Positions 1,906-25,306 of a DNA stretch of 35,082 nucleotides are shown piece by piece (position 1 is the first letter of the stretch; each line of letters starts with the position of its first letter). A model generated the notes under the pieces. The model made no database searches and was not told the origin of the DNA. It worked only from the letters and a program-made list of their open reading frames with translations. The stretch spans positions 1-35,082 of the IMG/VR virus record IMGVR_UViG_3300049826_000008; one strand, 5' to 3'. The translations under genes and the position numbers were made by a program. The DNA is from a virus.

Positions 1906-1939
1906 AGCCACTAGGGGTTTGCTCCTCTAGTGGCTTTTT
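1906..1939 (+). terminator. Rho-independent terminator
   Basis: AGCCACTAG (1906-1914) pairs with CTAGTGGCT (1927-1935), with further G-C pairs inside. A run of five T follows (1935-1939). It lies 38 bases after the first gene and separates it from the next transcription unit. Confidence 0.85.
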
Positions 1940-2494: not shown

Positions 2495-3532
2495 ATGTTA
2501 GCAGGTCAATTCGTGCGTTGTGTAACGCGTAAATACACTCAACTGCATTTTGGTCAAGACTACCAAATCGAGCGTGTAACTCGTATTGGTTCATTGAAAT
2601 TTGTAGGATACGGGCATTTATACAATCGTAACAACTTCGTTAAGATTGTTGCGCCTATGCCTCAACCTATTAAGGTTCCTGTTGCTCCTCCTCCACCTGT
2701 TGTTAAGAAGACAATGGTTGAACAGCTAATGGCTAAGGCAGGGGAACGAGCTGGTACGTGTAGCTATGCAATTGAATTTGAGGATGGGCGTATTCGTTTA
2801 CAAGCGCATGATGCTTGCCATGCTCGTATGCGTTATGGCTCTCGTATGTCAGCAGGGGATTCAGATAAGAACAAGCCTGTTGCTGTTGCTTGTTATATCA
2901 AGGGACATAACAATGCGTTGCACGTAGAATATCGTGAAGCATATAAGGCTCATGTCAAATATATGCTTAATGATAGCCCTTGGGCAGATGCTTGGCTTAC
3001 CAAGGATGTTGACGAAGCGTTGAAGGGCTGTGCAATGATGGATGTGACCAAGCCTTTCTCATATGTTTGTAGTGCTGCTATTGCTATGCGTAGCGGTTCT
3101 GAATACTACAAGTTCCTACCTTTGTTCAAGCGTTTGTTGGATATGAAGTATTCACCACACGTTGCCTATCTCATGGCTCACATGACGCAGGTTAATACGG
3201 GTAAGCATACAGTTATCCATCAATCAGGTAGCCACCATGTATTGCATAGTGGTATGTCGTTGGATAAGGTTGTGGACTTCTTTGATAATAAGAAGATTTA
3301 CACGGTTGATAAGGCATACAACGATTCACACAATGCGTACTACCAAATCTTCAAGGTTATGGCAGAGCATGACGCTGTGAAAGAAGGTAGCTTGATTGAC
3401 ACATTGCGTAAGGCCAACCCTGAGTTTGTCAAGGAGGATAAGACTGGATGGGTTCCAATCAAAACCACTGTCGCCGAGAACTTTGACGACTATCTGAAAA
3501 TTGTTAACACATTCGCAAGGAATTTCAAATGA
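2495..3532 (+). CDS. Unknown protein, first gene of the amidoligase cassette (345 aa)
   Basis: I do not recognise the family. ATG 2495 follows AAAGGTG about eight bases upstream. The first 50 residues look like a small beta-rich domain. A Pro/Val linker follows (about 54-70, with PPPP), then a larger alpha/beta region rich in His and Tyr. No signal peptide or membrane helix is visible. The stop codon overlaps the start of the C26-type gene (ATGA at 3529-3532), so the two are translationally coupled. That linkage suggests a role in the amide-bond chemistry of the cassette or in handling its product. No catalytic motif can be named. Confidence 0.75.
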   Translation: MLAGQFVRCVTRKYTQLHFGQDYQIERVTRIGSLKFVGYGHLYNRNNFVKIVAPMPQPIKVPVAPPPPVVKKTMVEQLMAKAGERAGTCSYAIEFEDGRIRLQAHDACHARMRYGSRMSAGDSDKNKPVAVACYIKGHNNALHVEYREAYKAHVKYMLNDSPWADAWLTKDVDEALKGCAMMDVTKPFSYVCSAAIAMRSGSEYYKFLPLFKRLLDMKYSPHVAYLMAHMTQVNTGKHTVIHQSGSHHVLHSGMSLDKVVDFFDNKKIYTVDKAYNDSHNAYYQIFKVMAEHDAVKEGSLIDTLRKANPEFVKEDKTGWVPIKTTVAENFDDYLKIVNTFARNFK

Positions 3533-4173
3533 AAAAAGTATTCATCGTAAACGGTAGCGAAGGTTATTCCTCCCTCTTTCGCCGTATGGGTTATGACATT
3601 GTTAGCGACCTGACTGAAGTTACATTAGTGTGCTTCACTGGTGGTAGTGATGTGTCTCCTGAATTGTACGGTCATACCAAGCATTACAGTACATACAATG
3701 ACCCTTCTCGTGACCAATACGAGGCTGACATTTTCCAATTGTGTGTGGAACGTAGCATCCCTATGGTTGGTATCTGTCGTGGTGGTCAGTTCCTTAACGT
3801 AATGTCAGGTGGTACGATGTACCAGGATGTGTCCTACCACACTCGTGACCATTTGATTACAGACCTTGAGACAGGCGAAAGCATCTGGGTGTCATCTACC
3901 CATCACCAGATGATGAAGCCAGCTCCTAACGCCCTTCTCGTGGCTACAGGAAGCCTTAAGGGTGAGCGTACTTGGTGGGACAGCGGTGTATTCAACAAAG
4001 ATACGTCTAATGAGGACATTGAGGTGGTGTATTACGCTGATACACAGGCATTGTGCTTCCAACCACACCCTGAGTTCAATGGTCAAATCTTTAAGAATAT
4101 GCACCACTACTTTGCTGGATTGGTGGAGCGCTTCTTGGTTAAGAAGCAGCATCCTGCTGGCTGTTCATGTTAA
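3529..4173 (+). CDS. C26-type class I glutamine amidotransferase-like hydrolase
   Basis: This is a 214-residue protein with the class I glutaminase fold signature. FTGGSDVSPELYG (residues 36-48) forms the oxyanion strand, GICRGGQ carries the nucleophile Cys83, and HPE supplies His180 and Glu182, completing the triad. Length and motifs match the gamma-glutamyl hydrolase/PuuD (peptidase C26) branch, which cleaves gamma-glutamyl amides, rather than GuaA or CarA. An AAGGA ribosome site lies nine bases before ATG. In this cassette it may trim or recycle a gamma-glutamyl product made by the ligases, or supply ammonia. Which of these cannot be told from the sequence. The gene overlaps its upstream neighbour and the tiny membrane gene after it. 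Confidence 0.85.
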   Translation: MKKVFIVNGSEGYSSLFRRMGYDIVSDLTEVTLVCFTGGSDVSPELYGHTKHYSTYNDPSRDQYEADIFQLCVERSIPMVGICRGGQFLNVMSGGTMYQDVSYHTRDHLITDLETGESIWVSSTHHQMMKPAPNALLVATGSLKGERTWWDSGVFNKDTSNEDIEVVYYADTQALCFQPHPEFNGQIFKNMHHYFAGLVERFLVKKQHPAGCSC

Positions 4174-4289
4174 GTCGCATCATTGAAGGTATTATAGATG
4201 TGTGCATGGCTATTATGATGCTGTGTTGTGCATTTGTAATGATTGTGTTGGTCTACTCTTATCTTGTAAAAGAAATTGGGAGCTTGTAA
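4167..4289 (+). CDS. Tiny membrane protein (40 aa)
   Basis: This short open frame begins at ATG 4167, inside the end of the C26-type gene, and stops at TAA 4287-4289, which overlaps the next start. After a short polar N-terminus (MLSRIIEG), residues about 9-34 form one strongly hydrophobic helix rich in Met, Cys, Val and Ile, followed by a KEIGSL tail. It looks like a single-pass inner-membrane peptide. Tight coupling to both neighbours supports it as a real gene. Function is unknown; a membrane anchor for the cassette or a small lysis or exclusion peptide are possibilities. Confidence 0.6.
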   Translation: MLSRIIEGIIDVCMAIMMLCCAFVMIVLVYSYLVKEIGSL

Positions 4290-4462
4290 TGGTATTCATT
4301 CTTGGCTTGTTGTTGATGTGGTGTGAGTACATCCATCGTGTTACTGATGACGATAACCGTTTTGTAGGGTTTCCCTTGGATGGTTATTGGGTGATTGGTT
4401 TATTGGGACGCATCATGTGCTCAGTATCCCTGATTCATTTCGCTTGGTTTGTTCTGTTGTAA
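4289..4462 (+). CDS. Small two-helix membrane protein (57 aa)
   Basis: It starts at ATG 4289, overlapping the previous stop as TAATG. One hydrophobic helix spans residues about 2-13 (VFILGLLLMWC). A charged loop with a DDD run follows (about 14-30), then a second hydrophobic segment (about 33-57) rich in Trp, Ile and Leu that reaches the C-terminus. The topology is hairpin-like. It is translationally coupled to the single-pass peptide before it, and a good AAGGAG site for the next gene follows the stop. No family is recognised. The tandem pair lies within an otherwise soluble enzyme cassette. Confidence 0.6.
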   Translation: MVFILGLLLMWCEYIHRVTDDDNRFVGFPLDGYWVIGLLGRIMCSVSLIHFAWFVLL

Positions 4463-4470
4463 GGAGATAG

Positions 4471-4755
4471 ATGATGTTACAAAAGCATGATAGCACTGGC
4501 GTTACTTGGCCTTTCCCTAGTGCAAAGGCTCCAAGCCTAGCCCCTAAGCCCGTTGTATTCTTCAAAGGTAAAGCTCGCTTTATTGATTGGGCAGGTAAGA
4601 AGGATGTTCAAGTGGCTAGTGTGTATGCTCTTAATCACCCTAAGTTGGGTGAGTGTCAAGTGCGTACATCACAAGTGATGGAGATTTTTGATGATGGTTC
4701 ATTCGAGACGATGAACACAATGTATATCCCTAAGAAAGCAACTCACAATGCCTAA
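4471..4755 (+). CDS. Unknown small protein (94 aa)
   Basis: I do not recognise this protein. ATG 4471 has AAGGAGATAG directly upstream, one of the best ribosome sites in the cassette. The N-terminal third is Pro/Ala/Lys-rich and probably flexible. The rest looks like a small beta-rich domain (KARFIDWAGKKDVQVASVYAL). There is no signal peptide or membrane segment. It overlaps the next gene by eight bases. A function within the cassette is possible but unproven. Confidence 0.65.
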   Translation: MMLQKHDSTGVTWPFPSAKAPSLAPKPVVFFKGKARFIDWAGKKDVQVASVYALNHPKLGECQVRTSQVMEIFDDGSFETMNTMYIPKKATHNA

Positions 4756-4960
4756 AAAGAAAACCTCATTTAAATACATGGTGTCTGTTGATGGTACTCA
4801 GGCACCTAAGTTTGAACACGACACATTGTTGGAAGCAACAAAAGAAGCTGAACGTCTAGCTGAGGTGTTTGGTAATACTGAGCGTACTATTCGTGTGCTA
4901 CGAGTAGAAGCAGTCCTTAAAGTTAAACGTGAAATTGTTACCACCAAAACTTGGGTTTAA
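4748..4960 (+). CDS. Unknown small basic protein (70 aa)
   Basis: I do not recognise this protein. The start overlaps the previous gene by eight bases. The product is Lys-rich, begins MPKKKTSFKYMVSVDG and reads as one beta-alpha-beta unit with an amphipathic helix (about 27-41). This would fit a small compact domain with no catalytic motif. It ends six bases before the tRNA gene. Confidence 0.6.
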   Translation: MPKKKTSFKYMVSVDGTQAPKFEHDTLLEATKEAERLAEVFGNTERTIRVLRVEAVLKVKREIVTTKTWV

Positions 4961-4966
4961 TATAAC

Positions 4967-5043
4967 ACGACAGTAGCTCAACTGGATAGAGCAACAACCT
5001 TCTAAGTTGTCGGTTATGGGTTCGATTCCCGTCTGTCGTACCA
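4967..5043 (+). tRNA. tRNA-Arg(UCU) with encoded CCA
   Basis: The cloverleaf can be folded by eye. The acceptor arms ACGACAG/CTGTCGT pair at all seven positions. The D stem is GCTC/GAGC, the anticodon stem ACAAC/GTTGT with loop CTTCTAA (anticodon TCT), and the T stem ATGGG/CCCGT with loop TTCGATT. The A discriminator is followed by an encoded CCA. It would read AGA (and AGG by wobble). AGA is scarce in the amidoligase genes around it but common in the polymerase, exonuclease and reductase genes, so it probably supports those. Confidence 0.97.
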
Positions 5044-5060
5044 TTCATTCAATCGAGATT

Positions 5061-5756
5061 ATGAACATCATTGTCATTTCCCCAAAAGCATCAGATGAAA
5101 GTGCTAAGCGTCTAGCTAAGGAGCTAGGTGCTGTGTATGAAAATCCATATCAAGCTAAGCATAACAATTATGGAGGGTTTGATGTAATCATTAACTATGG
5201 TTATTCTCAACCGTTCAAGATGAATCGTAATGTCTTCTTAATTAATAGTTTTGAAACAGTACGGGCTTGTATTGATAAACGTGCTACACTTCATCACCTT
5301 GCGATTGCTGGTGTACCTGTGCCAGAATTTGCTACTAAAATCAAAGATGAATGGCACACTGTAATTTGCCATACTAAACCTGATGGACGCAAGAACGAAG
5401 GTATTGAACACTGGTATCGCAATGAACAAATGGCTATTCCTCCTGCTTATCTCTACACCAACTACTATCCTCATCGTGGTGAGTATCGTGTTGTTGTCTT
5501 GAAAGGTAAGATTGTTGGTCGTTACCGCAAGGTGCTGGACGCTGAAGGTATGTGGAGTTTAGAGTTGCGTGATAAGCGTGGCTTTGAAGAGATGGATGCA
5601 GCTTGCGTAAAGGCAGCTCGTGCATTACGTGTTGATTACGTTGGCTTCGATGTGCTTGCACAGAAGAAAGATAACTTCGTAATCATCGAGGCCAACTCTG
5701 GCCCTATCCTGACAGATGAATCTGTTGAAGCTTTTAAAGAACTGATTGGAGTGTAA
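5061..5756 (+). CDS. ATP-grasp ligase 1 (231 aa)
   Basis: This is an ATP-grasp fold amide-forming ligase of the RimK-like type. A Gly/basic loop (CHTKPDGRKNEG, about 103-114) would hold phosphates. EYRVVVLKGKIVGRYRKV (141-158) is the typical central strand pair. VGFDVLA (Asp197) and IIEANSGP (Glu210, Asn212) bind magnesium. Such enzymes activate a carboxylate as an acyl-phosphate and join it to an amine. The frame extends back into the tRNA, so the first reasonable start, ATG 5061, is used; its ribosome site is weak. It abuts the class II amidotransferase gene by one base. Substrates are unknown. Confidence 0.85.
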   Translation: MNIIVISPKASDESAKRLAKELGAVYENPYQAKHNNYGGFDVIINYGYSQPFKMNRNVFLINSFETVRACIDKRATLHHLAIAGVPVPEFATKIKDEWHTVICHTKPDGRKNEGIEHWYRNEQMAIPPAYLYTNYYPHRGEYRVVVLKGKIVGRYRKVLDAEGMWSLELRDKRGFEEMDAACVKAARALRVDYVGFDVLAQKKDNFVIIEANSGPILTDESVEAFKELIGV

Positions 5757-5757
5757 T

Positions 5758-7140
5758 ATGTGTGGACTCGTAGGCATGGCTGGTAATCTTACCAGCAAAG
5801 AAGAAAAGGCTTTCCATCAACTGCTGATTATGGATTCAGTTCGTGGTGTGGATAGTACAGGTGTAGCTGTTGTCCCTCGTATTGGTGAGGTTAAGATCGC
5901 CAAAGAACTAGGTGACACATATCGTTTGATGGACAAGAAATCGTATGACAAATTATTCCACGGAACTAATCGTTGCATCATTGGACATAACCGTTGGGCT
6001 ACTGTTGGTGGTGTTTCTCGTGACACTGCACATCCTTTTGACTTCACTACTCTTGTGGGCGCTCACAATGGTACGCTCCAATCCAAGTATCGTCTTGATG
6101 ACCACACACATTTCAAGACAGATAGTGAAGCTCTGTACAACCATATTGATTCTAAGGGTTTGAAGAGTGCTCTCGAACATCTGAATGGTGCATGGGCATT
6201 GACATGGTGGGACAAAGAGAAGGAAACGATTAACTTCTTGCGTAACAAAGAGCGTCCACTCTACGTTACGTTCAATGAGGCACAGAGTGTAGTGTTCTGG
6301 GCTTCAGAATCGTGGATGCTCAAGGCTGCCCTTGGTCGCAATGACATTAAGCATCCTGAACCTGTGTTGATTGGTGAAGACAATCACTACTCTATTGCTG
6401 TTAGCTCTGCTGCTGTAATGGAGAAGACTAAGATTGTGCAAGCCCCTTCACGCTATGTTGCTCCTCCTGTGGTGGTCTACCAAGGCTACCAAAATAATCG
6501 TATGGCTAACGGTTATTGGCAAGAGGAAGCAGACAAGGCTAAGCCTGCCGCTACGGTTACTCAAATCGGCAGTGTTCAATCAAAAAAGGAGGGGGTGGCT
6601 CCCACAACAGCCTCCTCAAGCTTACGGACAGGCTACTCGGGAAAAAAGGGCGCATCGCTCGAGCTTCTTGAGTTGGCATCTGACCGTAAGGGTGGCTGTT
6701 ATTACATATGCTTCGATGCACAAAGCCCTTCGTCTAAGGTACGCTTCTACTACAACAAACGTGAGACAGCTCCTCACAAGAATGTTGGTAAGAGTATTAC
6801 CGCAGACATTGGTGACTTGATCATTGATGCGTATGAAGGAGGTTACTACAAGGTTATTGCATCGTCTGTTGAGTACGAGAGTGAAGCTCCCGTCATTGAT
6901 GCAGATGAAGACTTTGACCCAGTAGTTGATCGTCAGTACGTTACTCATACCAATGCAATGATTAGTTTCAACGATTGGATGAATGAGTACGGTGAGTGTG
7001 TGTGGTGTGGTTCGTCCGTACAACCTACTCAACAACACGCATTGACAACAGAGGGTCAGTGCTTGTGTGCAAATTGTCTTGATGATTCAGAAATCAATGG
7101 TTTTGTCAAAATTGCTAAGCAAGTAGCTGCTTCAGCATAA
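5758..7140 (+). CDS. Class II (Ntn) glutamine amidotransferase with C-terminal zinc ribbon
   Basis: The start is set at ATG 5758 because Cys2 must become the N-terminal nucleophile. Ntn amidotransferase motifs follow: RGVDSTG (29-35), GHNRWAT (76-82), AHNGT (102-106) and TDSEAL (121-126). The first 240 or so residues resemble the glutaminase domain of PurF, GlmS or AsnB, but no PRPP, sugar or ATP-PP domain follows. The rest is a linker, an unknown domain (about 300-390) and a zinc ribbon (Cys414, Cys417, Cys437, Cys440). Ammonia would have to be passed to a separate partner, most plausibly a neighbouring ligase. Residues about 275-297 appear locally frame-shifted between two A6 tracts. Confidence 0.88.
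   Translation: MCGLVGMAGNLTSKEEKAFHQLLIMDSVRGVDSTGVAVVPRIGEVKIAKELGDTYRLMDKKSYDKLFHGTNRCIIGHNRWATVGGVSRDTAHPFDFTTLVGAHNGTLQSKYRLDDHTHFKTDSEALYNHIDSKGLKSALEHLNGAWALTWWDKEKETINFLRNKERPLYVTFNEAQSVVFWASESWMLKAALGRNDIKHPEPVLIGEDNHYSIAVSSAAVMEKTKIVQAPSRYVAPPVVVYQGYQNNRMANGYWQEEADKAKPAATVTQIGSVQSKKEGVAPTTASSSLRTGYSGKKGASLELLELASDRKGGCYYICFDAQSPSSKVRFYYNKRETAPHKNVGKSITADIGDLIIDAYEGGYYKVIASSVEYESEAPVIDADEDFDPVVDRQYVTHTNAMISFNDWMNEYGECVWCGSSVQPTQQHALTTEGQCLCANCLDDSEINGFVKIAKQVAASA
6582..6647 (+). other. Probable compensated double frameshift inside the amidotransferase
   Basis: Between A6 at 6582-6587 (followed by GGAGGGGG) and A6 at 6642-6647, the annotated frame uses codons rare in this gene (GGG, CCC, CGG, AGC). 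The +1 frame there reads LPQQPPQAYGQATR with ordinary codons (CCT, GCT, ACT, CAA). One base lost at the first tract and one gained at the second would restore it. This may be an assembly error in homopolymers, a real pair of mutations, or recoding. Confidence 0.5.
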
Positions 7141-7166
7141 TCTTTTTATTTCAACGAGGTGTTAAC

Positions 7167-7958
7167 ATGGAAATTTTAGTTGGTTGCGACCCAGAAGTGT
7201 TTGTGAAACAAGGTGGTGTGTTCAAGTCTGCGTTCGGCTTGATTCAGGGGGATAAAGCTAACCCTCAGAAGGTCAATCGTGGCGCTGTACAAGTGGACGG
7301 TATGGCATTGGAGTTCAACATTGACCCTGCCCATAGTGAAGATGAGTTCTGCCTTAATGTGCAGGATGTATTCAATACGATGAAGCTGATGGTTCCAGAC
7401 TATGAGGTTGTTGCTGTACCTGTGGCTCACTTTGACCCAGACTACATTAAGAACCAGCCAGCTGCTGCTCTTGAATTGGGCTGTGATCCAGACTTCAATG
7501 CTTGGATTAATGCCGTTAACAACAAGCCTAATGGCAATCGTCCTATGCGTACTGCATCTGGTCACGTTCATATCGGATGGACTAAGGGCGCTGATACGTC
7601 TGACTTCAATCACATCGAGATGTGTAACGCTGTGATTCGTCAGATGGACTTCTTCCTTGGCTTGCCTAGTCTTTCCTATGATGATGACCAAGAACGCCGT
7701 GAGATGTATGGTAAGGCAGGTTGCTGTCGCTATAAGCCTTATGGTACGGAGTATCGTACCTTATCTAATGCTTGGCTCAAGAGTGAAGCACTGATGCGTT
7801 GGGTCTATCGTAATACTTTGGCAGGTATGAACGAACTCATCAAGGGTAATGTCTTGGCTGACAAGTATGGCGACATTCAAGAATTGATTAACACAGGGAA
7901 TAAAAAGGAAGCTATGAAGATTATCAAGAACGAGAAGATCGAGGTGTGTTATGCCTGA
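7167..7958 (+). CDS. phiEco32-like COOH-NH2 ligase (GS-fold amidoligase)
   Basis: At 263 residues, this matches the glutamine-synthetase-fold family named after phage phiEco32. Visible motifs are GCDPEVF (Asp8, Glu10), VQVDGMALEF (Asp44, Glu49), SGHVHIGW (His133, His135) and CCRYKPYGTEYRTLSNAWL (Tyr192, Glu195, Arg197). In glutamine-synthetase folds, such acidic and His residues bind metals and ATP, and the Arg binds acyl-phosphate. The expected reaction is ATP-driven joining of a carboxylate to an amine. A GAGGTG site precedes ATG 7167. The last eight bases overlap the next gene. In phages this family is known beside ATP-grasp and amidotransferase genes, as here. The substrate is unknown. 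Confidence 0.9.
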   Translation: MEILVGCDPEVFVKQGGVFKSAFGLIQGDKANPQKVNRGAVQVDGMALEFNIDPAHSEDEFCLNVQDVFNTMKLMVPDYEVVAVPVAHFDPDYIKNQPAAALELGCDPDFNAWINAVNNKPNGNRPMRTASGHVHIGWTKGADTSDFNHIEMCNAVIRQMDFFLGLPSLSYDDDQERREMYGKAGCCRYKPYGTEYRTLSNAWLKSEALMRWVYRNTLAGMNELIKGNVLADKYGDIQELINTGNKKEAMKIIKNEKIEVCYA

Positions 7959-8577
7959 ACTTAATCATGCAGACGTACATCAACTGTATTCAGATACGGT
8001 GTGTCGTTATAAGGGTGCCCCTGTACGTGTTGTAGAGATCAATCGTGACCTTATGGTTTCTATTATTCTTCTGCGTCATGGTAAGATGGCTCAGGTTAAG
8101 TTTGAGCAAGCCCTGTTTGGCCCTCCATTGGGACGTATTGGCTTTGTGAATGAAGGTGTTCATGCTTTCTATGTCACTCGTCAGCCTGTTCGTCGTTACC
8201 AAGTAGGCCTTAATCGTGGTAATGTTAAGTTCCATTGCCTTCCTATGGCTGATCGTAAGAAAGCTGAACGTGATTATAACATCGCATTCAAGATGAATAC
8301 GAAGGCATGGGCCAAGTCATTGGACAATGAATATCCTAGCCTTGCTGAGGCTATACGCATTGCTACGGAGCATAACGGCACTGTTGCTTTCGATAAGCAA
8401 TTCGCTGTTGATGGTGAACGTAACATCTACCACAAGACTAACAAGGTGGGTACTATCCCTCCACGTATGTCTACCGTCAAACGTGTTGTATTCAATCCTG
8501 GATACGAACATCTCGATACTCTCTTGATTTATAACTATGACAAAACTACACGAACTATTGCAGCAAAAGCCAACTAA
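7951..8577 (+). CDS. Unknown protein between the two amidoligases (208 aa)
   Basis: I do not recognise the family. It overlaps both neighbours (8 bases upstream, 41 bases downstream), so it is firmly embedded in the cassette. The N-terminal 80 or so residues look like a beta-rich barrel (YKGAPVRVVEINRDLMVSIIL). The middle is basic (MADRKKAERDYN, about 102-113). There is no signal peptide or membrane segment. It may be a scaffold, a peptide-recognition subunit or the acceptor of the modification, but this rests on position alone. Confidence 0.75.
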   Translation: MPELNHADVHQLYSDTVCRYKGAPVRVVEINRDLMVSIILLRHGKMAQVKFEQALFGPPLGRIGFVNEGVHAFYVTRQPVRRYQVGLNRGNVKFHCLPMADRKKAERDYNIAFKMNTKAWAKSLDNEYPSLAEAIRIATEHNGTVAFDKQFAVDGERNIYHKTNKVGTIPPRMSTVKRVVFNPGYEHLDTLLIYNYDKTTRTIAAKAN

Positions 8578-9751
8578 TGGACTATTCGGTATTGAGATTG
8601 AAACTGAGGGTCGTAACCTTACAATGGTTGCCCCACCTCAGTGGAAGATTGAAGACGATGGTTCCCTACGTGGGCAATTCCCTACTGAACGTGCCGAGTA
8701 TGTTCTGAAGAAGCCTCTTGACTTGCCTAAAGCTATTGACGCAGTTGTTAAGTTGCGTGAGCTTCAGGATGCTAACAAGGCTGTACTTAACTTCTCGTTT
8801 CGTACTAGCGTTCACGTTCACGTCAACGTTCAGCAACTGACATTCCCTCAGTATCTGAATATGATTTATACATACCTGTTGCTTGAGGAACCATTGGTTC
8901 GTTATTGCGGCAAGGAACGTGTAGGTAATCGCTTCTGTCTGCGTTTACAAGATGCAGAGGGTTTGCTTGATTACTTGTTCATGTTGTTCCGTCAAGGATA
9001 TGGTGCACTGCGTCATATTCATGGTGACAATGTACGTTATGCAGCTATTAACGTAGCAGCTACAGGTAAGTACGGTAGTCTTGAGTTCCGTTCACTCAAG
9101 GGTAATATGGATGTGCCCTACATCACAACATGGTTGCAGGCTCTCGATCACTTGCGTTCATTCGCAATGGAAATGAAAGACCCGCAAGATGTACACAACT
9201 TGTTTGTGAACAATACTCCTGAGCAATTTGCTGAGATTGTATTGGGTGATGTATACGAATCATTCGTGTATCCTGAGATGGAAAATGATATGCGTAGTAG
9301 CTTCTCTCTAGCATTGGAGCTTCCATACAACTACGTTGACCAGACAGTTAACGATGCTAAGATTCTGGCTGATCTCCTAGCTAAGAAGGAACGTCAGAAG
9401 GCTGAAGTACAGGCAATGATTGATCACGAGGCATTGATGGCACGCCAACGTGCTGAGCGTGAACTAGCTCGTCGAGCTGAGAGAGATGCTCTTGTACCTC
9501 CTCCAGTGCGTAATGATGTACTTCGCCCAGACAATATCTTTGAAGCACCTCCTGTTCGTCGTCGTCCAGCCCTCAATCCAATCGACTGGAATGCTGCTAT
9601 GGAAGCTCGTTTACAAGCGGGACAAGCTATGGCTGAACGTGCAGGAGTGCGTAGAGGTGCTCGTGGTAATGTGAACATGATTATCGTAGACGATATCTTG
9701 AATGAAGAAGGCCCTGTGTTGGCAGCTCCACAACGTGAAGGACACTGGTAA
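8537..9751 (+). CDS. Second GS-fold amidoligase (Amidoligase_2-like) with charged tail
   Basis: This is a 404-residue protein. FGIEIETEG (17-25) is the hallmark first strand of the amidoligase_2 family. It is followed by WKIEDDGSLRG (36-46), SVHVHVNV (91-98), RVGNRF (128-133) and YGSLEFRSLKG (179-189), which supply the acidic, His and Arg active-site residues. It would make amide bonds using ATP. Residues about 275-350 form a Lys/Arg/Glu-rich helix, possibly a coiled coil, and a Pro-rich segment before a more ordered C-terminus. Family members usually lack such an arm, so it may bind a partner or nucleic acid. The start overlaps the previous gene, and the stop overlaps the next start as TAATG. 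Confidence 0.88.
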   Translation: MTKLHELLQQKPTNGLFGIEIETEGRNLTMVAPPQWKIEDDGSLRGQFPTERAEYVLKKPLDLPKAIDAVVKLRELQDANKAVLNFSFRTSVHVHVNVQQLTFPQYLNMIYTYLLLEEPLVRYCGKERVGNRFCLRLQDAEGLLDYLFMLFRQGYGALRHIHGDNVRYAAINVAATGKYGSLEFRSLKGNMDVPYITTWLQALDHLRSFAMEMKDPQDVHNLFVNNTPEQFAEIVLGDVYESFVYPEMENDMRSSFSLALELPYNYVDQTVNDAKILADLLAKKERQKAEVQAMIDHEALMARQRAERELARRAERDALVPPPVRNDVLRPDNIFEAPPVRRRPALNPIDWNAAMEARLQAGQAMAERAGVRRGARGNVNMIIVDDILNEEGPVLAAPQREGHW

Positions 9752-10491
9752 TGAATATCTATCCATATAAAATGGCTAGTGAGTCAGCGAAAGCATTGGC
9801 TCAAGCGTTAGGTGTTAAGCGACTCAAGCATGAAGGAAGGATGATAGCACTCCCGTTCATCAACTGGGGCGCATCAAAGATTAAACGTGAGATTAAACCT
9901 CTCACTGGTATCTACAACCATCCTAATGCTGTGGCTATTGCTGGCAATAAGCTCAAGACATTCTTGTGTCTTGATCAAATTGTTAACATTCCCGACTACA
10001 CAACTGATATTGCAGAGGCTAAAGAGTGGCTTAATGCAGGTATTACGATTGTTGAACGTCATACTCTCACTGGTCACAGTGGTCAGGGTGTGCGTATTGT
10101 GTCCTTTGATGAGGAGCTTGACCCTAAAGCTAAGCTCTATGTCAAGTACATCAAGAAAGAGCAAGAGTATCGACTTCATGTATTTGATTTCGATGTGTTC
10201 TTTATCCAACGTAAGGCTCGTGCACTAGATGTGCCTAATGACCAAGTGAATTGGCAAGTACGTAATCATGCAAATGGTTTCATCTATGCCAATCAAGATA
10301 TTGAGTTACCTGATGAAGCTAAGCAAATGGCTACTGAAGCAATTCGTACTCTTGGTTTAGACTTTGGTGCTGTTGATTTGATTTACAATGCACGTCAGAA
10401 CAAGTTCTATGTGCTTGAAGTTAACACTGCGCCAGGTTTATTTGGTACTACTCTTGAAAAATATGTCGAGAAGTTTAGTGAATTGGAGTAA
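9751..10491 (+). CDS. ATP-grasp ligase 2 (246 aa)
   Basis: This is the second ATP-grasp ligase of the cassette. The Gly-rich loop HTLTGHSGQGVRI (104-116), the strand EYRLHVF (139-145) and LDFGAVDLIYN (Asp209) lead to the metal-binding FYVLEVNTAPG (Glu223, Asn225), a classic RimK/D-Ala-D-Ala-ligase ending. It starts one codon-overlap after the second amidoligase (TAATG), so the two are co-translated. ATP-grasp 1 differs enough that a recent duplication is unlikely. The two may act on different substrates or on successive steps. The reaction is predicted from fold only. Confidence 0.87.
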   Translation: MNIYPYKMASESAKALAQALGVKRLKHEGRMIALPFINWGASKIKREIKPLTGIYNHPNAVAIAGNKLKTFLCLDQIVNIPDYTTDIAEAKEWLNAGITIVERHTLTGHSGQGVRIVSFDEELDPKAKLYVKYIKKEQEYRLHVFDFDVFFIQRKARALDVPNDQVNWQVRNHANGFIYANQDIELPDEAKQMATEAIRTLGLDFGAVDLIYNARQNKFYVLEVNTAPGLFGTTLEKYVEKFSELE

Positions 10492-10710: not shown

Positions 10711-10892
10711 GCGCACTATCTGAAGTTGACCTGCGAGACTTTGAGAAAGTTGATGTAGATCTGTTAGAATCTCAATTATCTAAGGATGATATGAATACAG
10801 TTCTATTGTTCGATTTTAAAGAGTATTGTGAGACTATTCGTCGCATCCAAAAGAAACTCATTGTTCAAACCCCTGCGTTATTTAAGCCATGA
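10707..10892 (+). CDS. Unknown small helical protein (61 aa)
   Basis: I do not recognise this protein. A strong AAGGAG lies ten bases before ATG 10707. The sequence is mostly helical with many Asp, Glu and Leu (VDLRDFEKVDVDLLESQL). There is no membrane segment. Its stop overlaps the start of the lipoprotein gene (ATGA), so the two are co-translated. Confidence 0.65.
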   Translation: MSALSEVDLRDFEKVDVDLLESQLSKDDMNTVLLFDFKEYCETIRRIQKKLIVQTPALFKP

Positions 10893-11317
10893 AAAAGTTG
10901 ATTCCCTTTATCCCCTTCATCTTCCTAGCCGCTTGCGGTGAATCACCTGCGCCACAACAAGCACAGGCACAACCTCAACAAGTTGTTCAACAGCAACAAC
11001 AGCCTCAAGTTGTTCAGCAACAGCCCCCTCAACAGGTTATTGTTCAACAAGCCCCTCCTCAACACAGTAGTGGTAACGATATGTTGGTTGGTGCTATGGC
11101 AGGCATGGCACTAGGTCATGTAATGAGTAACTCAGGCGGTGGTGGCTCTAGCACCAATGTCACTCGCAATACAACAGTAATTAATAAAACTGTTGTGGTA
11201 CAGCAAGCTCCTAAAGCTGCTCCTCCAACGCCAGCTCCTGCTGCACGTCCAGCACCAGTTGTACAACGTACAGTGGTGTCTTCTCCTTCTCGTTCATTCT
11301 CTTCTGGAAAGCGTTAA
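10889..11317 (+). CDS. Gln/Pro-rich lipoprotein with glycine-zipper segment (142 aa)
   Basis: The N-terminus is a lipoprotein signal: MKK, a hydrophobic core, then the lipobox LAAC with Cys16. Residue +2 is Gly, which favours the outer membrane. A low-complexity Gln/Pro/Val region follows (about 20-60), then GAMAGMALGHVM (about 68-79), a glycine-zipper-like segment that could insert into a membrane, a Gly/Ser linker and an Ala/Pro-rich tail ending RSFSSGKR. The layout recalls the DUF1190/YgiB type of bacterial lipoprotein, but this is a resemblance in pattern only. Phage lipoproteins often block superinfection by masking receptors. It could also be the surface acceptor for the upstream amidoligase cassette. 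Both roles are inference. Confidence 0.8.
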   Translation: MKKLIPFIPFIFLAACGESPAPQQAQAQPQQVVQQQQQPQVVQQQPPQQVIVQQAPPQHSSGNDMLVGAMAGMALGHVMSNSGGGGSSTNVTRNTTVINKTVVVQQAPKAAPPTPAPAARPAPVVQRTVVSSPSRSFSSGKR

Positions 11318-18662: not shown

Positions 18663-18900
18663 ATTTAAAGGCTTCTCATTGTTTAACGATGTAGAAGATG
18701 ACAACCTTCGTCCTTTCAATCGTGCTCGTGTTATGGCGAACATGGCTGAAGATCACACAAACAAAGAGAAGCGTATTACCCCTAAAGGCGCAGCTCTAAT
18801 CCTAGGTTATTTTAACCTGATTCCGAAAGAGGAACGCAATGTTGCGAAGGACTTGTTTGAGATCGAGATGAATAATCGTGGATTCGCACTTACAGCTTGA
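18646..18900 (+). CDS. Unknown protein (84 aa)
   Basis: I do not recognise this protein. ATG 18646 is used because it is the first Met with a purine-rich AAGAAAG upstream; the frame is open further back without support. The product is soluble and mixed in charge, with a helical middle (NRARVMANMAEDHTNKEKR) and a C-terminal helix. It lies between the HNH nuclease and the dNTP-metabolism genes and overlaps the HNH gene by 17 bases. Confidence 0.7.
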   Translation: MSNQSEFKGFSLFNDVEDDNLRPFNRARVMANMAEDHTNKEKRITPKGAALILGYFNLIPKEERNVAKDLFEIEMNNRGFALTA

Positions 18901-18919
18901 AGCTCGATTTAAGGAGCTA

Positions 18920-19264
18920 ATGGAAAGAGTTATGTCTAAAGAACTAACAGGAACTAAACACGATCAAGACAAGCCAATGCTAAATCTAATTGACCCACAA
19001 GCAATTGAGGGTTTAGCAGCGGTCTTGACATTCGGAGCTAAGAAGTATGCAGCTGACAACTGGCGAGGCGGTATTAGTAATTCACGACTTATTGCTTCTC
19101 TACTCCGTCATCTGTTTGCTATTATGCGGGGTGAGTACACGGACCCTGAATCAGGTCTTCCTCACATTGACCATGTGGGTTGTAATTGGATGTTCCTATC
19201 TAATAATCTCAAGAATCGTCCCGATCTAAACGACAGTTGGTTTATCAAACATGAGCAAAGTTAA
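18920..19264 (+). CDS. dATP/dGTP diphosphohydrolase-like protein
   Basis: The family pattern is clear: KHDQDKPML, LAAVLTFGAKKYAADNWRGG, RLIASLLRHLFAIMRGEYTDPESG and HIDHVGCNWMFL. This matches the N-terminal dATP/dGTP diphosphohydrolase domain (PF18909-like) that is common in phages. It belongs to the MazG-related helical NTP pyrophosphohydrolases that convert dNTP to dNMP. ATG 18920 is chosen because AAGGAG lies just upstream, although the gap is short (3 bases). GTG 18878 and ATG 18932 are alternatives. It sits directly before ThyX. Relatives (MazZ) help make 2-aminoadenine genomes, but no PurZ is seen in this window. Confidence 0.8.
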   Translation: MERVMSKELTGTKHDQDKPMLNLIDPQAIEGLAAVLTFGAKKYAADNWRGGISNSRLIASLLRHLFAIMRGEYTDPESGLPHIDHVGCNWMFLSNNLKNRPDLNDSWFIKHEQS

Positions 19265-19877
19265 ATTAATCTGGGCTACGCCAGACGGTGAAAACCTCGT
19301 AGCATACATGGCCCGAGTTAGCAATCCAGCTAACCAAGACAATAAGGAATCAGCCCCTAAGTTGTTGCAATATCTGGTACGCAATAAGCATTGGTCTCCA
19401 TTCGAGATGGTTAGTGCTTGCGTAGAGATCGAGACAACTCGAGACATTGCTCGACAGATTCTTCGTCATCGTAGTTTCGCCTTTCAAGAATTCAGCCAGC
19501 GATATGCAGTTGCCACTGGATTTGAGACAGGTGAAACACGATTACAAGATAATAAGAATCGTCAGAATAGTTTGCTGAATGAAGATCGTGAGCTTGATGA
19601 TATGTGGCAACGCACTCAGAAAGAACTGATCGAGCACAGTACGAAAGCTTATCAATGGGCTCTAGATAACAACATTGCCAAAGAAGTAGCACGTAAGGTG
19701 TTGCCCGAAGGCTTAACTACCTCTCGTATGTATATGACAGGTACACTCCGCAGTTGGATTCACTACTTGCAAGTGAGACTTGATCCAGCAACACAGAAAG
19801 AGCATCGTGAAGTAGCACAGCAAATCCTTGTTGCGTTGCAAAAAGATTATCCTAACATTTTGGAAGTATTGAAATGA
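19251..19877 (+). CDS. thyX: Flavin-dependent thymidylate synthase ThyX
   Basis: The signature RHRSFAFQEFSQRY (residues 72-85) is the ThyX motif RHRxxSxxExSxR with a slight shift. KHWSPFEM (46-53) is the conserved folate/FAD strand. The C-terminal part (GLTTSRMYMTGTLRSWIHYLQVRLDPATQKEHREVA) holds the dUMP-binding Arg and the helix typical of the family. ThyX makes dTMP from dUMP using FAD and methylene-tetrahydrofolate, feeding phage DNA synthesis. The length of 208 is normal. ATG 19251 overlaps the previous gene by 14 bases; the stop overlaps the next gene by four. Confidence 0.95.
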   Translation: MSKVKLIWATPDGENLVAYMARVSNPANQDNKESAPKLLQYLVRNKHWSPFEMVSACVEIETTRDIARQILRHRSFAFQEFSQRYAVATGFETGETRLQDNKNRQNSLLNEDRELDDMWQRTQKELIEHSTKAYQWALDNNIAKEVARKVLPEGLTTSRMYMTGTLRSWIHYLQVRLDPATQKEHREVAQQILVALQKDYPNILEVLK

Positions 19878-20629
19878 AGATTGCAGTTATCCCTGACACA
19901 CAAGTTAAACCTGGCGTTGATCTCGCTTATCTCTCACGTATTGGTGAGTACCTCGTAGAGAAGCAGCCAGACGTTATCGTTCATCTAGGCGACCATTGGG
20001 ATATGCCTAGCCTGAGTAGCTACGATATTGGTAAGAAGAGTTTTGAAGGTCGTCGTTATAAGAATGACATTCAAGCTGGTAACGCAGGTATGGACGAGTT
20101 GTTGTATCCAATCAAGAGCTACAACAAACGTGCTGCAGCTAACCATAAGCCACGTTATCGCCCTGAAATGCACTTCTTGATGGGCAACCATGAGAACCGT
20201 ATTAATCGAGCTGTAAACAACGATGCTAAGCTTGAGGGTACTATCGGTGTTGAAGACTGTTATTTAGATGATTGGAATGTACATGATTTTCTGGAAGTGG
20301 CTATTATTGGTGGCATCGCTTTTAGTCATTACTTCGTTACAGGTATTGCAGGCCGTCCAGCTGCCACTGCCAATGCTCAGCTGAACAAGAAGCATATGAG
20401 CTGTATCGCAGGTCATCAACAAGGCTTGCAGATTGCTACAGCCCATCGGGGTGATGGTCAACGATTGACAAGTATTATTGCTGGCTCATGTTATGAGCAT
20501 GACGAAGATTACTTGGGTGCACAAGGTAATAAACACTGGCGCGGTATGCTGATGCTGCATGAAGTAAATGACGGTCAGTTTGACTTGATGCCAGTATCTC
20601 TCGATTACATTAACAAGAAATATAACTAA
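19874..20629 (+). CDS. Calcineurin-like metallophosphoesterase 2 (251 aa)
   Basis: Motifs of the two-metal phosphoesterase fold are PDTQVKPG (Asp8), HLGDHWD (Asp and His), MGNHENR, AFSHYF and AGHQQG. The length of 251 and the GDHWD spacing match a phage family often annotated only as metallophosphoesterase. The substrate is unknown. It is not a recent copy of the smaller protein at 13681, since lengths and motif surroundings differ. It overlaps ThyX by four bases and precedes the MazG-like gene, so a role in nucleotide turnover or DNA repair is plausible. Confidence 0.9.
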   Translation: MKIAVIPDTQVKPGVDLAYLSRIGEYLVEKQPDVIVHLGDHWDMPSLSSYDIGKKSFEGRRYKNDIQAGNAGMDELLYPIKSYNKRAAANHKPRYRPEMHFLMGNHENRINRAVNNDAKLEGTIGVEDCYLDDWNVHDFLEVAIIGGIAFSHYFVTGIAGRPAATANAQLNKKHMSCIAGHQQGLQIATAHRGDGQRLTSIIAGSCYEHDEDYLGAQGNKHWRGMLMLHEVNDGQFDLMPVSLDYINKKYN

Positions 20630-20636
20630 GGAAAAT

Positions 20637-21020
20637 ATGCAAACAGCACTACGTGAACACATTGACGACTTGATGTACGAATGTCACAAACAATCTAAAG
20701 ATGCAGGTTGGTGGCATGACATTAATACAGGTAAGTCTATTACCGAGAATCCTTTTGCATTTAGTAATAAATTGATGTTGACAGTCTCTGAATTGTCAGA
20801 GGCTATGGAAGCTGATCGTAAGGGATTGATGGATGATAAACTACCTCATATGGACGGCCGTGTTGTTGAACTCGCTGACGCTCTTATTCGTATTTTCGAT
20901 CTGGCTGGAGCGTACAATATGCCCCTTGGTAAAGCGTTTGAAGAAAAGATGGCATACAACGCCAATCGACACGACCACAAAATTGAAAACCGTCAAGCAT
21001 CTGGCGGCAAAGCATACTAA
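20637..21020 (+). CDS. MazG-like NTP pyrophosphohydrolase (127 aa)
   Basis: The helical MazG pattern is visible. LMLTVSELSEAMEADRKG (about 43-60) has the ExxE pair and GRVVELADALIRIFDLAG (about 73-90) has ExxD; these four acidic residues bind magnesium. Such proteins split NTP or dNTP to monophosphate. In phages they may also lower ppGpp or clean the dNTP pool. AAGGA precedes ATG 20637. It is co-directional with ThyX, the diphosphohydrolase-like gene and the reductase. Confidence 0.88.
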   Translation: MQTALREHIDDLMYECHKQSKDAGWWHDINTGKSITENPFAFSNKLMLTVSELSEAMEADRKGLMDDKLPHMDGRVVELADALIRIFDLAGAYNMPLGKAFEEKMAYNANRHDHKIENRQASGGKAY

Positions 21021-21037
21021 TAACAACAAGGAACTAA

Positions 21038-23014
21038 ATGACAGAAAACATTCAATCTCTCCGTTCGCAACTCTTGATGCGACGTACTTACAATCGACCA
21101 TTAGATGACAAAGGCACAGTATTTGAAACATTCGGACAAACCGTTAACCGAGTTATCGGACACCAACAGTGGCTCTGGGAACGTGCCCAGCAACGAGAGC
21201 TTGACACCCAGCAACTCATGGAGCTCGAAGAACTCCGATATCTCATGCTGGAGCGCAAAGTGCTCATGTCAGGAAGAACTCTTTGGTTGGGTGGTACGGA
21301 CGTGGCGAAGCGACGGGAAGCCTCTCAGTTCAACTGTTCGTTCACTCATGTTGAAACGGTATATGACGTCGTTGATGTTCTGTGGTTGCTCATGCAAGGC
21401 TGCGGAGTTGGATTTAGACCAATTGTGGGACAGCTTACCGGTTTCCAAGAACCAATCCGAGAACTCGAAGTAATCCGTAGCACACGTACAGATAAAGATG
21501 GCGATCAAGAAAATACAGAAACCTTTGAAAACGGAGTCTGGACAATCCGAGTTGGTGATTCAGCCGAAGCCTGGAGCAAGTCCATCGGTAAGCTGGTCGC
21601 TCATAAGTTTCCCGCCCGTAAACTTGTACTCGATTTCTCGCAGATTCGCCCTGCTGGTGAAAGACTGAAGGGTTATGGTTGGATTAGTAGTGGAGACGCA
21701 TCAATTGCAAAAGCTTATGAAGCAATTTTTCAAATTCTTAATCGTCGTGCAGGTAGCTTGCTTAGCCGTATTGACATTCTTGACGTGGTTAATTGGCTTG
21801 GGACTGTCCTATCTTCTCGACGCTCAGCTGAGATTGCTCTCTTCGAGTATGGAGAAGATGAGTGGGAAGAGTTTGCGGTAGCAAAGACAGACTGGTGGGC
21901 TAAGAATGTACAGCGAGGACAGAGTAACAATAGCTTGCTCTTTAATCACAAGCCGAGCAAAGAGAATATTGCAGAAATCTTTAAGCTTATGGTCGCAGCC
22001 GGTGGAAGTGAACCTGGTTTCATCAACGGCGTCAGTGCAAGAAAACGTGCACCTTGGTTCAAAGGAGCTAACCCTTGTGTTGAAATTCTCCTTGGCAATA
22101 AATCATTCTGCAACTTAACGGAGACAGACGTTGGCAAATTCAAGGGTGACTCTGCGGGACTTCGTAGAGCAATTTATATCGCCAGTCGCGCTAACTACCG
22201 ACAAACCTGTGTTAATCTCATGGATGGAATTCTCCAAGAGGCCTGGCACCTTAACAATGAATTCCTCCGACTTTGTGGAGTGGGCCTTACAGGTATCGTT
22301 CGACGACCAGACCTTGGAGGTTACGAATACGAAGAACTCAAGCGTACCGCTACTTCAGGCGCTTATTCCATGGCTGATGAGCTTGGGCTTCCAAGACCTA
22401 AGAATGTCACAACAGTTAAGCCCAGTGGGACACTTAGTAAGATCATGGACACTACAGAAGGTGTCCACAAGCCACTAGGTAAGTATATCTTCAATAACGT
22501 TAACTTCGGTAAACATGACCCATTGGTTCCCTTGTGTCGTGCTGCTGGATACAAAGTTATTGACAATCCTACTGACCCCTCAGCTGTGTTGATTACGTTC
22601 CCAGTAGCATGGGATGAAGTTCCTTTCGATAAGTTCGAGAAGGATGGTAAGGTTCTGGAGGTTAATCTGGAATCTGCAATTACGCAGCTTGAGCGTTATA
22701 AGATGTTGATGCAGAACTGGTGTCAACAGAACGTCTCAGCTACAATTAGTTACTCAGTGGAGGAAGTAGATGGGATTGTGGAATGGTTATATGATAATTG
22801 GGATGTTTATGTTGGAGTATCTTTCCTCTTTAGGGCTGATCCCACAAAGACAGCCAAAGACCTCGGATACCTCTACCTTCCCCAAGAAGTCGTAACCAAG
22901 GAAGCGTATGAAGAATACGCAGCAGTGTTGCAGCCAATTGAGCTTGATAAGTCAAACGATATTGATGCTGTGTTAGAAGATGATTGTACAACTGGAGCTT
23001 GCCCAATTCGATGA
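21038..23014 (+). CDS. nrdJ: Class II (adenosylcobalamin-dependent) ribonucleotide reductase (658 aa)
   Basis: The protein reduces ribonucleotides using a B12-derived radical. Key residues match the monomeric Lactobacillus-type enzyme. Cys100 is in FNCSF. The cluster Asn345, Cys347, Glu349 and Cys358 (ANPCVEILLGNKSFC) has the family's 11-residue spacing between Cys347, the radical cysteine, and Cys358. The C-terminal redox pair Cys650 and Cys655 (CTTGACPIR) is reloaded by thioredoxin or glutaredoxin. A VKPSGTLS loop is present. No separate radical-generating subunit is needed. AAGGA precedes ATG 21038. The host must supply cobalamin. The gene overlaps the glutaredoxin gene (ATGA). Arg and Leu codon use (CGA, AGA, CTC) differs from the cassette genes until about 22480. 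Confidence 0.94.
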   Translation: MTENIQSLRSQLLMRRTYNRPLDDKGTVFETFGQTVNRVIGHQQWLWERAQQRELDTQQLMELEELRYLMLERKVLMSGRTLWLGGTDVAKRREASQFNCSFTHVETVYDVVDVLWLLMQGCGVGFRPIVGQLTGFQEPIRELEVIRSTRTDKDGDQENTETFENGVWTIRVGDSAEAWSKSIGKLVAHKFPARKLVLDFSQIRPAGERLKGYGWISSGDASIAKAYEAIFQILNRRAGSLLSRIDILDVVNWLGTVLSSRRSAEIALFEYGEDEWEEFAVAKTDWWAKNVQRGQSNNSLLFNHKPSKENIAEIFKLMVAAGGSEPGFINGVSARKRAPWFKGANPCVEILLGNKSFCNLTETDVGKFKGDSAGLRRAIYIASRANYRQTCVNLMDGILQEAWHLNNEFLRLCGVGLTGIVRRPDLGGYEYEELKRTATSGAYSMADELGLPRPKNVTTVKPSGTLSKIMDTTEGVHKPLGKYIFNNVNFGKHDPLVPLCRAAGYKVIDNPTDPSAVLITFPVAWDEVPFDKFEKDGKVLEVNLESAITQLERYKMLMQNWCQQNVSATISYSVEEVDGIVEWLYDNWDVYVGVSFLFRADPTKTAKDLGYLYLPQEVVTKEAYEEYAAVLQPIELDKSNDIDAVLEDDCTTGACPIR

Positions 23015-24607: not shown

Positions 24608-25306
24608 TTACTTTCCTGCAATCTTCTGTAGATAGTCTCTTGTTTCTTTAGGAAGTCTAGATTCCCAATGGGTTCCAGCCTTCTTAGATTCACGAATGAG
24701 TTTATCAACTTTGCCTGGACCGTAGTTATACGCAGCTAATGCTTTACGCATATCTCCGTGGTACTTACTTTCCATAGCAACCATGTAATCAAAACCAGTA
24801 CGCAAGGATTCTTCAGGAGACTTATCCTGAGCTGGCTTAACACCAAATCCAGGATCTGCTTGCGTCTTAGGCATGATCTGAGCAGCACCTTCTGCACCCT
24901 TAGGTGAAGTAAGAATGCCCCCCTGTTCGTTATAATGCTTACCGCCGCTTTCAGTTTGAATCTGCTTATTGAAAAGCTTCCTAACTTTAGCAGCTCCAGC
25001 TGTATCCTTTTCAGGACTGAAGTAAGCACCTTTATAAGCCTCTACAGCAGCTTTGTAAGGCTCAGGAGCAGGCTGAACTTGCTCTTGGGTATCCTTGCCC
25101 TTAATTAGCTTTTGAAGCTCGTTAAAAGGCATTTCCCAAGGCTTGTAATTCTTGACAGATTCAACAGCAGGAGCAACAGTTTCTTTGACAGCTTCCACTG
25201 CCTTTCCTGTTGCTGCCATTAGTTTGTCAAAGCCCATATTCCATGGGCCGTTTTCATCACTGGGCTGCGTTGATGGCTCGCCAGTTGGCTTTGTTTCGGA
25301 AGTCAA
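24608..25306 (-). CDS. Lytic transglycosylase, virion-associated (232 aa)
   Basis: The C-terminal half (about 108-225) has the SLT transglycosylase fold: QIQTESGG with the catalytic Glu119, GAEGAAQIMP (about 137-146) and LAAYNYGPGKV. Such enzymes cut peptidoglycan so the ejected genome can pass. T7 carries this domain within gp16, whereas here it is a separate protein. The N-terminal half is a low-complexity linker with two related motifs (PWNMGFDKL and PWEMPFNEL). The start is TTG 25306, chosen for AAGGGGA six bases upstream; ATG 25237 is an alternative. It overlaps the preceding gene by 50 bases. Confidence 0.9.
   Translation of the reverse strand: MTSETKPTGEPSTQPSDENGPWNMGFDKLMAATGKAVEAVKETVAPAVESVKNYKPWEMPFNELQKLIKGKDTQEQVQPAPEPYKAAVEAYKGAYFSPEKDTAGAAKVRKLFNKQIQTESGGKHYNEQGGILTSPKGAEGAAQIMPKTQADPGFGVKPAQDKSPEESLRTGFDYMVAMESKYHGDMRKALAAYNYGPGKVDKLIRESKKAGTHWESRLPKETRDYLQKIAGK

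Follow-up and report, generated by a model that had tools for sequence, protein, structure and literature searches.

A phage cassette of amide-bond ligases accompanied by a C26 hydrolase, a gamma-glutamylcyclotransferase or both, and the gamma-glutamyl-capped intermediate that it may use

What do phages build with a block of co-oriented genes that encodes several ATP-dependent amide-bond ligases beside amide-cleaving enzymes? The question is raised by a 35,082-base virus record, IMGVR_UViG_3300049826_000008 (the window, meaning this whole stretch of DNA), whose positions 2495-10491 carry such a cassette upstream of genes for a primase-helicase, a sigma-70-type factor and a family A DNA polymerase. 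An earlier note, made from the letters alone, had described a co-directional, mostly overlapping set of genes for a C26-type hydrolase, two ATP-grasp ligases, an N-terminal nucleophile (Ntn) amidotransferase (GAT-II), a COOH-NH2 ligase (PF14395) and an Amidoligase_2 protein (PF12224), both of glutamine synthetase (GS) fold, and two further proteins of 345 and 208 residues. All of these genes are present in the place and on the strand described, and Pfam, PHROG and NCBIfam searches assign the proteins to the families that it named. We propose, with a probability of about one half, that the cassette constitutes one pathway that would build a glutamate-rich amide or short peptide in a protect-build-deprotect manner, by way of a gamma-glutamyl-capped intermediate.

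The PF14395 protein alone has matches in 316 records of a phage collection, none above 60% identity, and a scan of viral contigs yielded 77 loci. Using profiles grown from the window proteins we mapped 91 loci, whose carriers include crAss-like phages, and observed that 616 of 617 family members lie on one strand in a few fixed orders, which argues that the cassette is not a chance assembly. Among the 62 loci with enough flank, GAT-II, the PF14395 ligase, the amidoligase and an ATP-grasp were each present in 60-62 and the 208-residue family was recognised in 48, a weaker-threshold search of five phages revealing this family in LUZ24-like and phiEco32-like phages as well. Gene order differs between groups (Zobellviridae-like; LUZ24-like, with GAT-II after the amidoligase; crAss-like, with the ATP-grasp first), so the set has been kept together while being reshuffled, and because it stays linked in very distant phages the joint multi-step pathway anticipated in the earlier note is well supported. 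The smaller sets that the note ascribed to phiEco32-like phages proved smaller insofar as the window has one extra ATP-grasp, but almost all of the set is present in ES17, 7-11 and GAP52. Bacterial genomes gave 16 loci, about 10 with a phage-like cassette, and as all come from metagenome-assembled genomes there is no host pathway from which to borrow a function. In most genomes the cassette adjoins primase and polymerase genes, a position that would suit a role in attaching amide-linked groups to phage DNA bases; yet this adjacency follows from a shared early/middle gene block, and general scans of the window proteins revealed no base-hydroxymethylating or base-activating enzyme, and we give DNA modification hardly any credence.

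The C26 protein of the window (Pfam match 6e-22, above cut-off) has the Cys83/His180/Glu182 triad singled out in the earlier note, which shows little or no variation among 78 C26 relatives, and an HHQ motif that is kept invariant, and its closest solved structures are of the Lin1909, SpuA and PuuD types. Its top NCBIfam relative is NF045546 (gamma-glutamyl-CDP-amidate hydrolase), with scores below the equivalog cut-offs of both NF045546 and PRK11366. Judged by these resemblances, it is more probably a hydrolase of gamma-glutamyl compounds, of the PuuD/SpuA/Lin1909 type, than an ammonia-supplying glutaminase; the earlier note had counted it as one of two glutaminase-type enzymes.

Other cassettes carry a gamma-glutamylcyclotransferase (GGCT) in place of C26 or in addition to it. 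C26 only was seen in 43 of the 62 sufficiently flanked loci, GGCT only in 8, both in 11 and neither in 0. A search of 55 whole records, which removes the flank limitation, gave 31 with C26 only, 12 with GGCT only, 11 with both and 1 with neither; it recovered the GGCT genes of 7-11 and GAP52 beyond the stretch first examined, and the lone record with neither enzyme (L088) also has no GAT-II or 208-residue gene in its locus. A second sample of 17 records, chosen by DNA polymerase without regard to the cassette, contained 11 with C26 only, 4 with GGCT only, 0 with both and 2 with neither, these last two contigs being also without PF14395 and PF12224 matches. For three of the four records with GGCT only in this sample, the cassette was recognised by the amidoligase alone (PF12224 found, PF14395 below threshold). 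No cassette-free sister group was found as a control, both cassette-less polymerase relatives being contigs that end near the polymerase. Every one of the 69 records in which the cassette is usable (54 + 15) has C26, GGCT or both; in the window, a 35-kb fragment, PF06094 (GGCT) was not found and C26 is there instead. The C26 and GGCT folds are unrelated, and the reaction common to them takes off a terminal gamma-L-glutamyl group. With one or both in every usable cassette, the most plausible inference is a gamma-glutamyl-capped intermediate, and the alternation would represent non-homologous replacement around it. In one record (G045, that of locus L159) the C26 gene contains one in-frame TAA, a possible sign of decay, error or recoding.

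Several points weigh against such an intermediate and the pathway built on it. The ligase tree requires at least 6 changes of C26 and at least 7 of GGCT, with no full cassette lacking both; as many of its branches are poorly supported, however, the counts make a strong pattern that phylogeny does not prove: the plain Fisher test (p 2e-5) ignores kinship, and an independent-pair test, which has one usable pair on well-supported branches, leaves the pattern not significant once kinship is removed. Moreover, we found in the literature no measured activity of any cassette protein, and the cassette encodes neither an oxidase nor any other enzyme for a middle step of the PuuB/PuuC kind. The amide cleaved by C26 could be a different one, and the substrate choice of GS-fold enzymes is not readable from sequence.

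In the protect-build-deprotect pathway, a GS-fold ligase, most likely the PF14395 protein, would use ATP to cap an amine or amino acid with gamma-L-glutamate, and further amide bonds would be made by the other GS-fold ligase and by a RimK-like ATP-grasp. The Ntn glutaminase, which may be tethered to its partners by a zinc-ribbon-like tail and perhaps by the 208-residue protein, would supply ammonia or trim an amide, and C26 in this phage, or GGCT in others, would take off the gamma-glutamyl cap and free the product, with the 345-residue Cys/Arg/Glu/His protein as a putative further enzyme or acceptor-handling part. A PuuD-like hydrolase with GS-fold ligases might instead serve catabolic salvage, mobilising nitrogen or polyamines, as the Puu pathway does, to supply nucleotide synthesis, and the window also encodes ribonucleotide reductase, Thy1 and a dATP/dGTP diphosphohydrolase; there is, however, no oxidase or dehydrogenase in the cassette, and three or four ATP-consuming ligases fit building and not breakdown, which makes salvage highly improbable.

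The requirements of GGCT bear on a further alternative, as this enzyme needs a free alpha-amine on the terminal gamma-L-glutamyl group. According to a published proposal, the cassette forms unusual linkages in host peptidoglycan stem peptides, excluding superinfecting phages or preparing lysis. Stem peptides do contain gamma-glutamyl bonds, but their internal gamma-D-Glu is without the free alpha-amine, and GGCT cannot act there. The proposal was advanced for the same gene set in those passages of PMC5498523 and PMC11945000 that cite Hardies 2013 and Iyer; we found in the literature no experiment that supports it, nor any experimental test of the function or product of the cassette, and the mapped loci show no conserved association of the cassette with genes for export, a lipid carrier or the envelope. 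We therefore consider a peptidoglycan linkage rather unlikely. More tentatively than the gamma-glutamyl-capped pathway as such, we suggest that the pathway may be self-contained in the phage, with gamma-glutamate as protecting group, that its product may be a new small amide or peptide metabolite or adduct, not a peptidoglycan linkage, and that the 345- and 208-residue proteins may be enzymes of folds unseen in solved structures.

Both ATP-grasps score above the Pfam RimK/ATP-grasp cut-offs (ATP-grasp 1 with 21.5 bits against a RimK cut-off of 21) and have intact metal/ATP residues (E141, D197, E210 and N212 in ATP-grasp 1; E139, D209, E223 and N225 in ATP-grasp 2, which also matches PHROG 2599 at 6.9e-75). 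They are 23% identical to each other, and the SGxG loop of ATP-grasp 2 is missing from ATP-grasp 1, which most plausibly starts at ATG 5061 and has 231 residues, since the competing TTG 5007 falls inside a tRNA-Arg gene (4967-5043). In NCBIfam both are nearest to RimK/MptN-type glutamate ligases, with cut-offs not reached. This kinship would suit a scheme in which a host or phage protein receives glutamate-rich tags from the RimK-like ATP-grasps and the GS-fold ligases, tags that C26, GGCT and GAT-II trim, and peptide modification of proteins is proposed for related families in the passage of PMC10580990 that cites Iyer 2009. By contrast, in known cases the substrates of C26 and GGCT are small gamma-glutamyl compounds, and we found no conserved protein whose flexible carboxylate tail could make it an acceptor; protein tagging appears distinctly improbable.

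ATP-grasp 1, encoded 5' of GAT-II, belongs to a clade of 19 sequences (support 100/99) that stands apart from the common 3' ATP-grasp and recurs among the relatives of the window. Two ATP-grasps occur in 14 loci, one of which (L070) is from another lineage, and three near-complete genomes of 49-50 kb (L021, L035, L041) have the ATP-grasp 1 type only, which is also true of two shorter contigs, L036 and L037; ATP-grasp 1 can thus take the place of ATP-grasp 2, and both are retained in the window. A search of the whole L021 record with the ATP-grasp 2 sequence came back empty and overlooked even the ATP-grasp 1 of L021 itself, so such a search is limited for the distant clade; ATP-grasp 2 was readily detected where present (E 1e-63, 1e-74).

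In the Pfam/PHROG scan of the window proteins GAT-II matched GATase_6 (7.9e-19), and its start at ATG 5758 places a Cys at position 2, as expected for the Ntn amidotransferase that had been predicted. A conserved Cx2C...Cx2C module, of which we found no mention in the literature on the cassette, closes the protein at its C-terminus. The PF14395 protein matched COOH-NH2_lig (8.7e-9) and PHROG 3815 (5.8e-89), and the PF12224 protein Amidoligase_2 (6.2e-9) and PHROG 7469 (4.2e-63); a PDB sequence search with both profiles gave no relatives. One PF14395 gene (record G040, of locus L119) has two in-frame TGA codons, again possibly decay, error or recoding.

The 345- and 208-residue proteins are without Pfam matches and are conserved parts of the cassette. 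In 39 aligned sequences of the 345-residue family Cys108, Arg199, Glu203 and His247 are invariant, and the protein is possibly an enzyme. Its model is confident (predicted local distance difference test, pLDDT, 89.9), as is that of the 208-residue protein (92.6), and neither found a significant match in fold searches of PDB (best E 0.19 for the former). In a viral structure library the named matches of the 345-residue model at E<=1e-3 were to CVT22, CW02, GAP52 (two), Aeromonas 4_4572, RIO-1 and Proteus 3H10_20. Profile comparison supported kinship with the two tandem genes that precede the PF14395 gene in GAP52 and 7-11, and gave no such support for the upstream genes of PaP3/tf (A9, A10), which were compared with the GAP52/7-11 set. 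A defence function was also entertained and set aside, as a PADLOC scan gave a single weak match, to the 345-residue protein (E 0.0025).

Finally, the lipoprotein encoded downstream, suggested earlier as acceptor or export partner, is not borne out in that role: a profile search of the mapped loci finds no copy outside the window, and lipobox open reading frames (ORFs) lie near 38 of 91 cassettes compared with 43 of 91 on the reverse strand. Two relatives (L025:4884-5267 and L044:6248-6631) have, in the interval from ATP-grasp 1 to GAT-II, lipoprotein-like ORFs of 128 residues that are related to each other and, by profile, not to the lipoprotein of the window.

The cassette genes (Table 1) overlap by 4, 8, 41 and 1 bases at four junctions, a single base separates ATP-grasp 1 from GAT-II, and two small ORFs and the tRNA-Arg gene occupy the interval between C26 and ATP-grasp 1. 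A strong terminator-like hairpin with a T tract (1906-1935, plus strand) lies just 5' of the cassette; it is the sole strong one found, the remaining plus-strand matches being weak and within coding sequence. The cassette genes are probably expressed from one transcript. By cassette protein, the nearest named relatives are Zobellviridae (CW02, CVT22, PA11/TC6, oyster phage contigs), and a nearest-DNA search with the window found no close isolate. Elsewhere the window carries a nucleotide-metabolism block at 18878-23014 (dATP/dGTP diphosphohydrolase N-domain, Thy1 (ThyX), calcineurin-like phosphoesterase, class II ribonucleotide reductase) and a late block with an SLT transglycosylase-domain protein (24608-25306) and a 1682-residue protein without Pfam match (27098-32146, minus strand). 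In GAP52 (L108), 7-11 (L109) and Slicky01 (L007), genes for ribose-phosphate pyrophosphokinase and nicotinate/nicotinamide phosphoribosyltransferase lie upstream of the cassette.

Table 1. Cassette genes and neighbouring features of the window
Feature	Coordinates	Strand	Remarks
345-residue protein, cassette-specific family, candidate enzyme	2495..3532	+	invariant C108, R199, E203, H247; pLDDT 89.9
C26 peptidase, PuuD/SpuA-like gamma-glutamyl hydrolase (predicted)	3529..4173	+	C83, H180, E182; HHQ 125-127
Small accessory ORF, 94 residues	4471..4755	+	close relatives only
Small accessory ORF, 70 residues	4748..4960	+	close relatives only
tRNA-Arg (tct), within cassette, between 70-residue ORF and ATP-grasp 1	4967..5043	+	
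ATP-grasp 1, RimK-like, separate 5' clade	5061..5756	+	E141, R143, E210, N212 invariant; D197 invariant in clade
GAT-II Ntn amidotransferase/glutaminase, Cys2	5758..7140	+	C-terminal Cx2C...Cx2C zinc-ribbon-like module
COOH-NH2 ligase, PF14395	7167..7958	+	GS fold by family
208-residue protein, PHROG 11055	7951..8577	+	conserved between both GS-fold ligases; confident model
Amidoligase_2, PF12224	8537..9751	+	GS fold by family; conserved E20, E22, E54, H93, H95, N172, E183, R185
ATP-grasp 2, RimK-like; common cassette ATP-grasp	9751..10491	+	
Lipoprotein-like ORF, no conserved cassette partner	10889..11317	+	

Among the hundreds of phages that carry the cassette are phages of Pseudomonas and E. 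coli with relevance to therapy, as well as crAss-like phages of the gut. That every full cassette examined has a gamma-glutamyl cleaver, belonging to one or other of two unrelated folds, predicts an intermediate and offers a concrete first assay for a long-open function, and the genomes with ATP-grasp 1 only narrow the ATP-grasp step. If confirmed, the product could turn out to be a new metabolite made by phages or a host modification of a new type. What is added here is the C26/GGCT rule, the separate ATP-grasp 1 clade, the conservation of the 345- and 208-residue proteins with their models, and the finding that the lipoprotein is not conserved.

In butirosin side-chain assembly the ATP-grasp BtrJ adds, and the GGCT-fold BtrG removes, a gamma-glutamyl protecting group; this assembly differs from the cassette in being carrier-protein bound and in having no GS-fold ligases. 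In the putrescine pathway of E. coli the GS-type ligase PuuA makes gamma-glutamylputrescine and the C26 enzyme PuuD removes the glutamyl group (PMC9397018). This pathway (SpuA/PauA in P. aeruginosa) resembles the cassette in joining a GS-type ligase and a C26 hydrolase through a gamma-glutamyl intermediate (predicted for the cassette), whereas the cassette has no PuuB/PuuC oxidases, adds an ATP-grasp, a second ligase, GAT-II and proteins outside Pfam, and draws on different GS families.

As a module the cassette is already described: Duhaime 2017 (PMC5498523) reported a seven-gene peptidoglycan modification cassette in RIO-1, phiEco32, 7-11, PA11, tf, MR299-2, LUZ24, PaP3 and CW02, naming a gamma-glutamyl amidoligase, a second amidoligase, an ATP-grasp, GGCT and a glutamine amidotransferase, and passages of PMC11945000 and PMC10580990 that cite Hardies 2013 and Iyer 2009 repeat cell-wall and superinfection ideas. 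With this podovirus cassette (including that of PSA-HP1) the window shares the PF14395 ligase, a 208-residue-type protein, Amidoligase_2, GAT-II, a RimK-like ATP-grasp and a predicted gamma-glutamyl-cleaving enzyme, co-oriented among early/middle genes beside the primase. GGCT, which the window fragment does not hold, is not strictly defining, as the described members PA11 and CVT22 are without it. The window differs further in its extra ATP-grasp of the ATP-grasp 1 clade and in having one 345-residue-type gene where 7-11 and GAP52 have two in tandem. Gene order is as in the Zobellviridae cassettes (345-residue type, C26, GAT-II, PF14395, 208-residue type, amidoligase, ATP-grasp, primase), with ATP-grasp 1 and tRNA-Arg in addition between C26 and GAT-II. 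The window is a variant of the podovirus module with two ATP-grasps and with C26 replacing GGCT.

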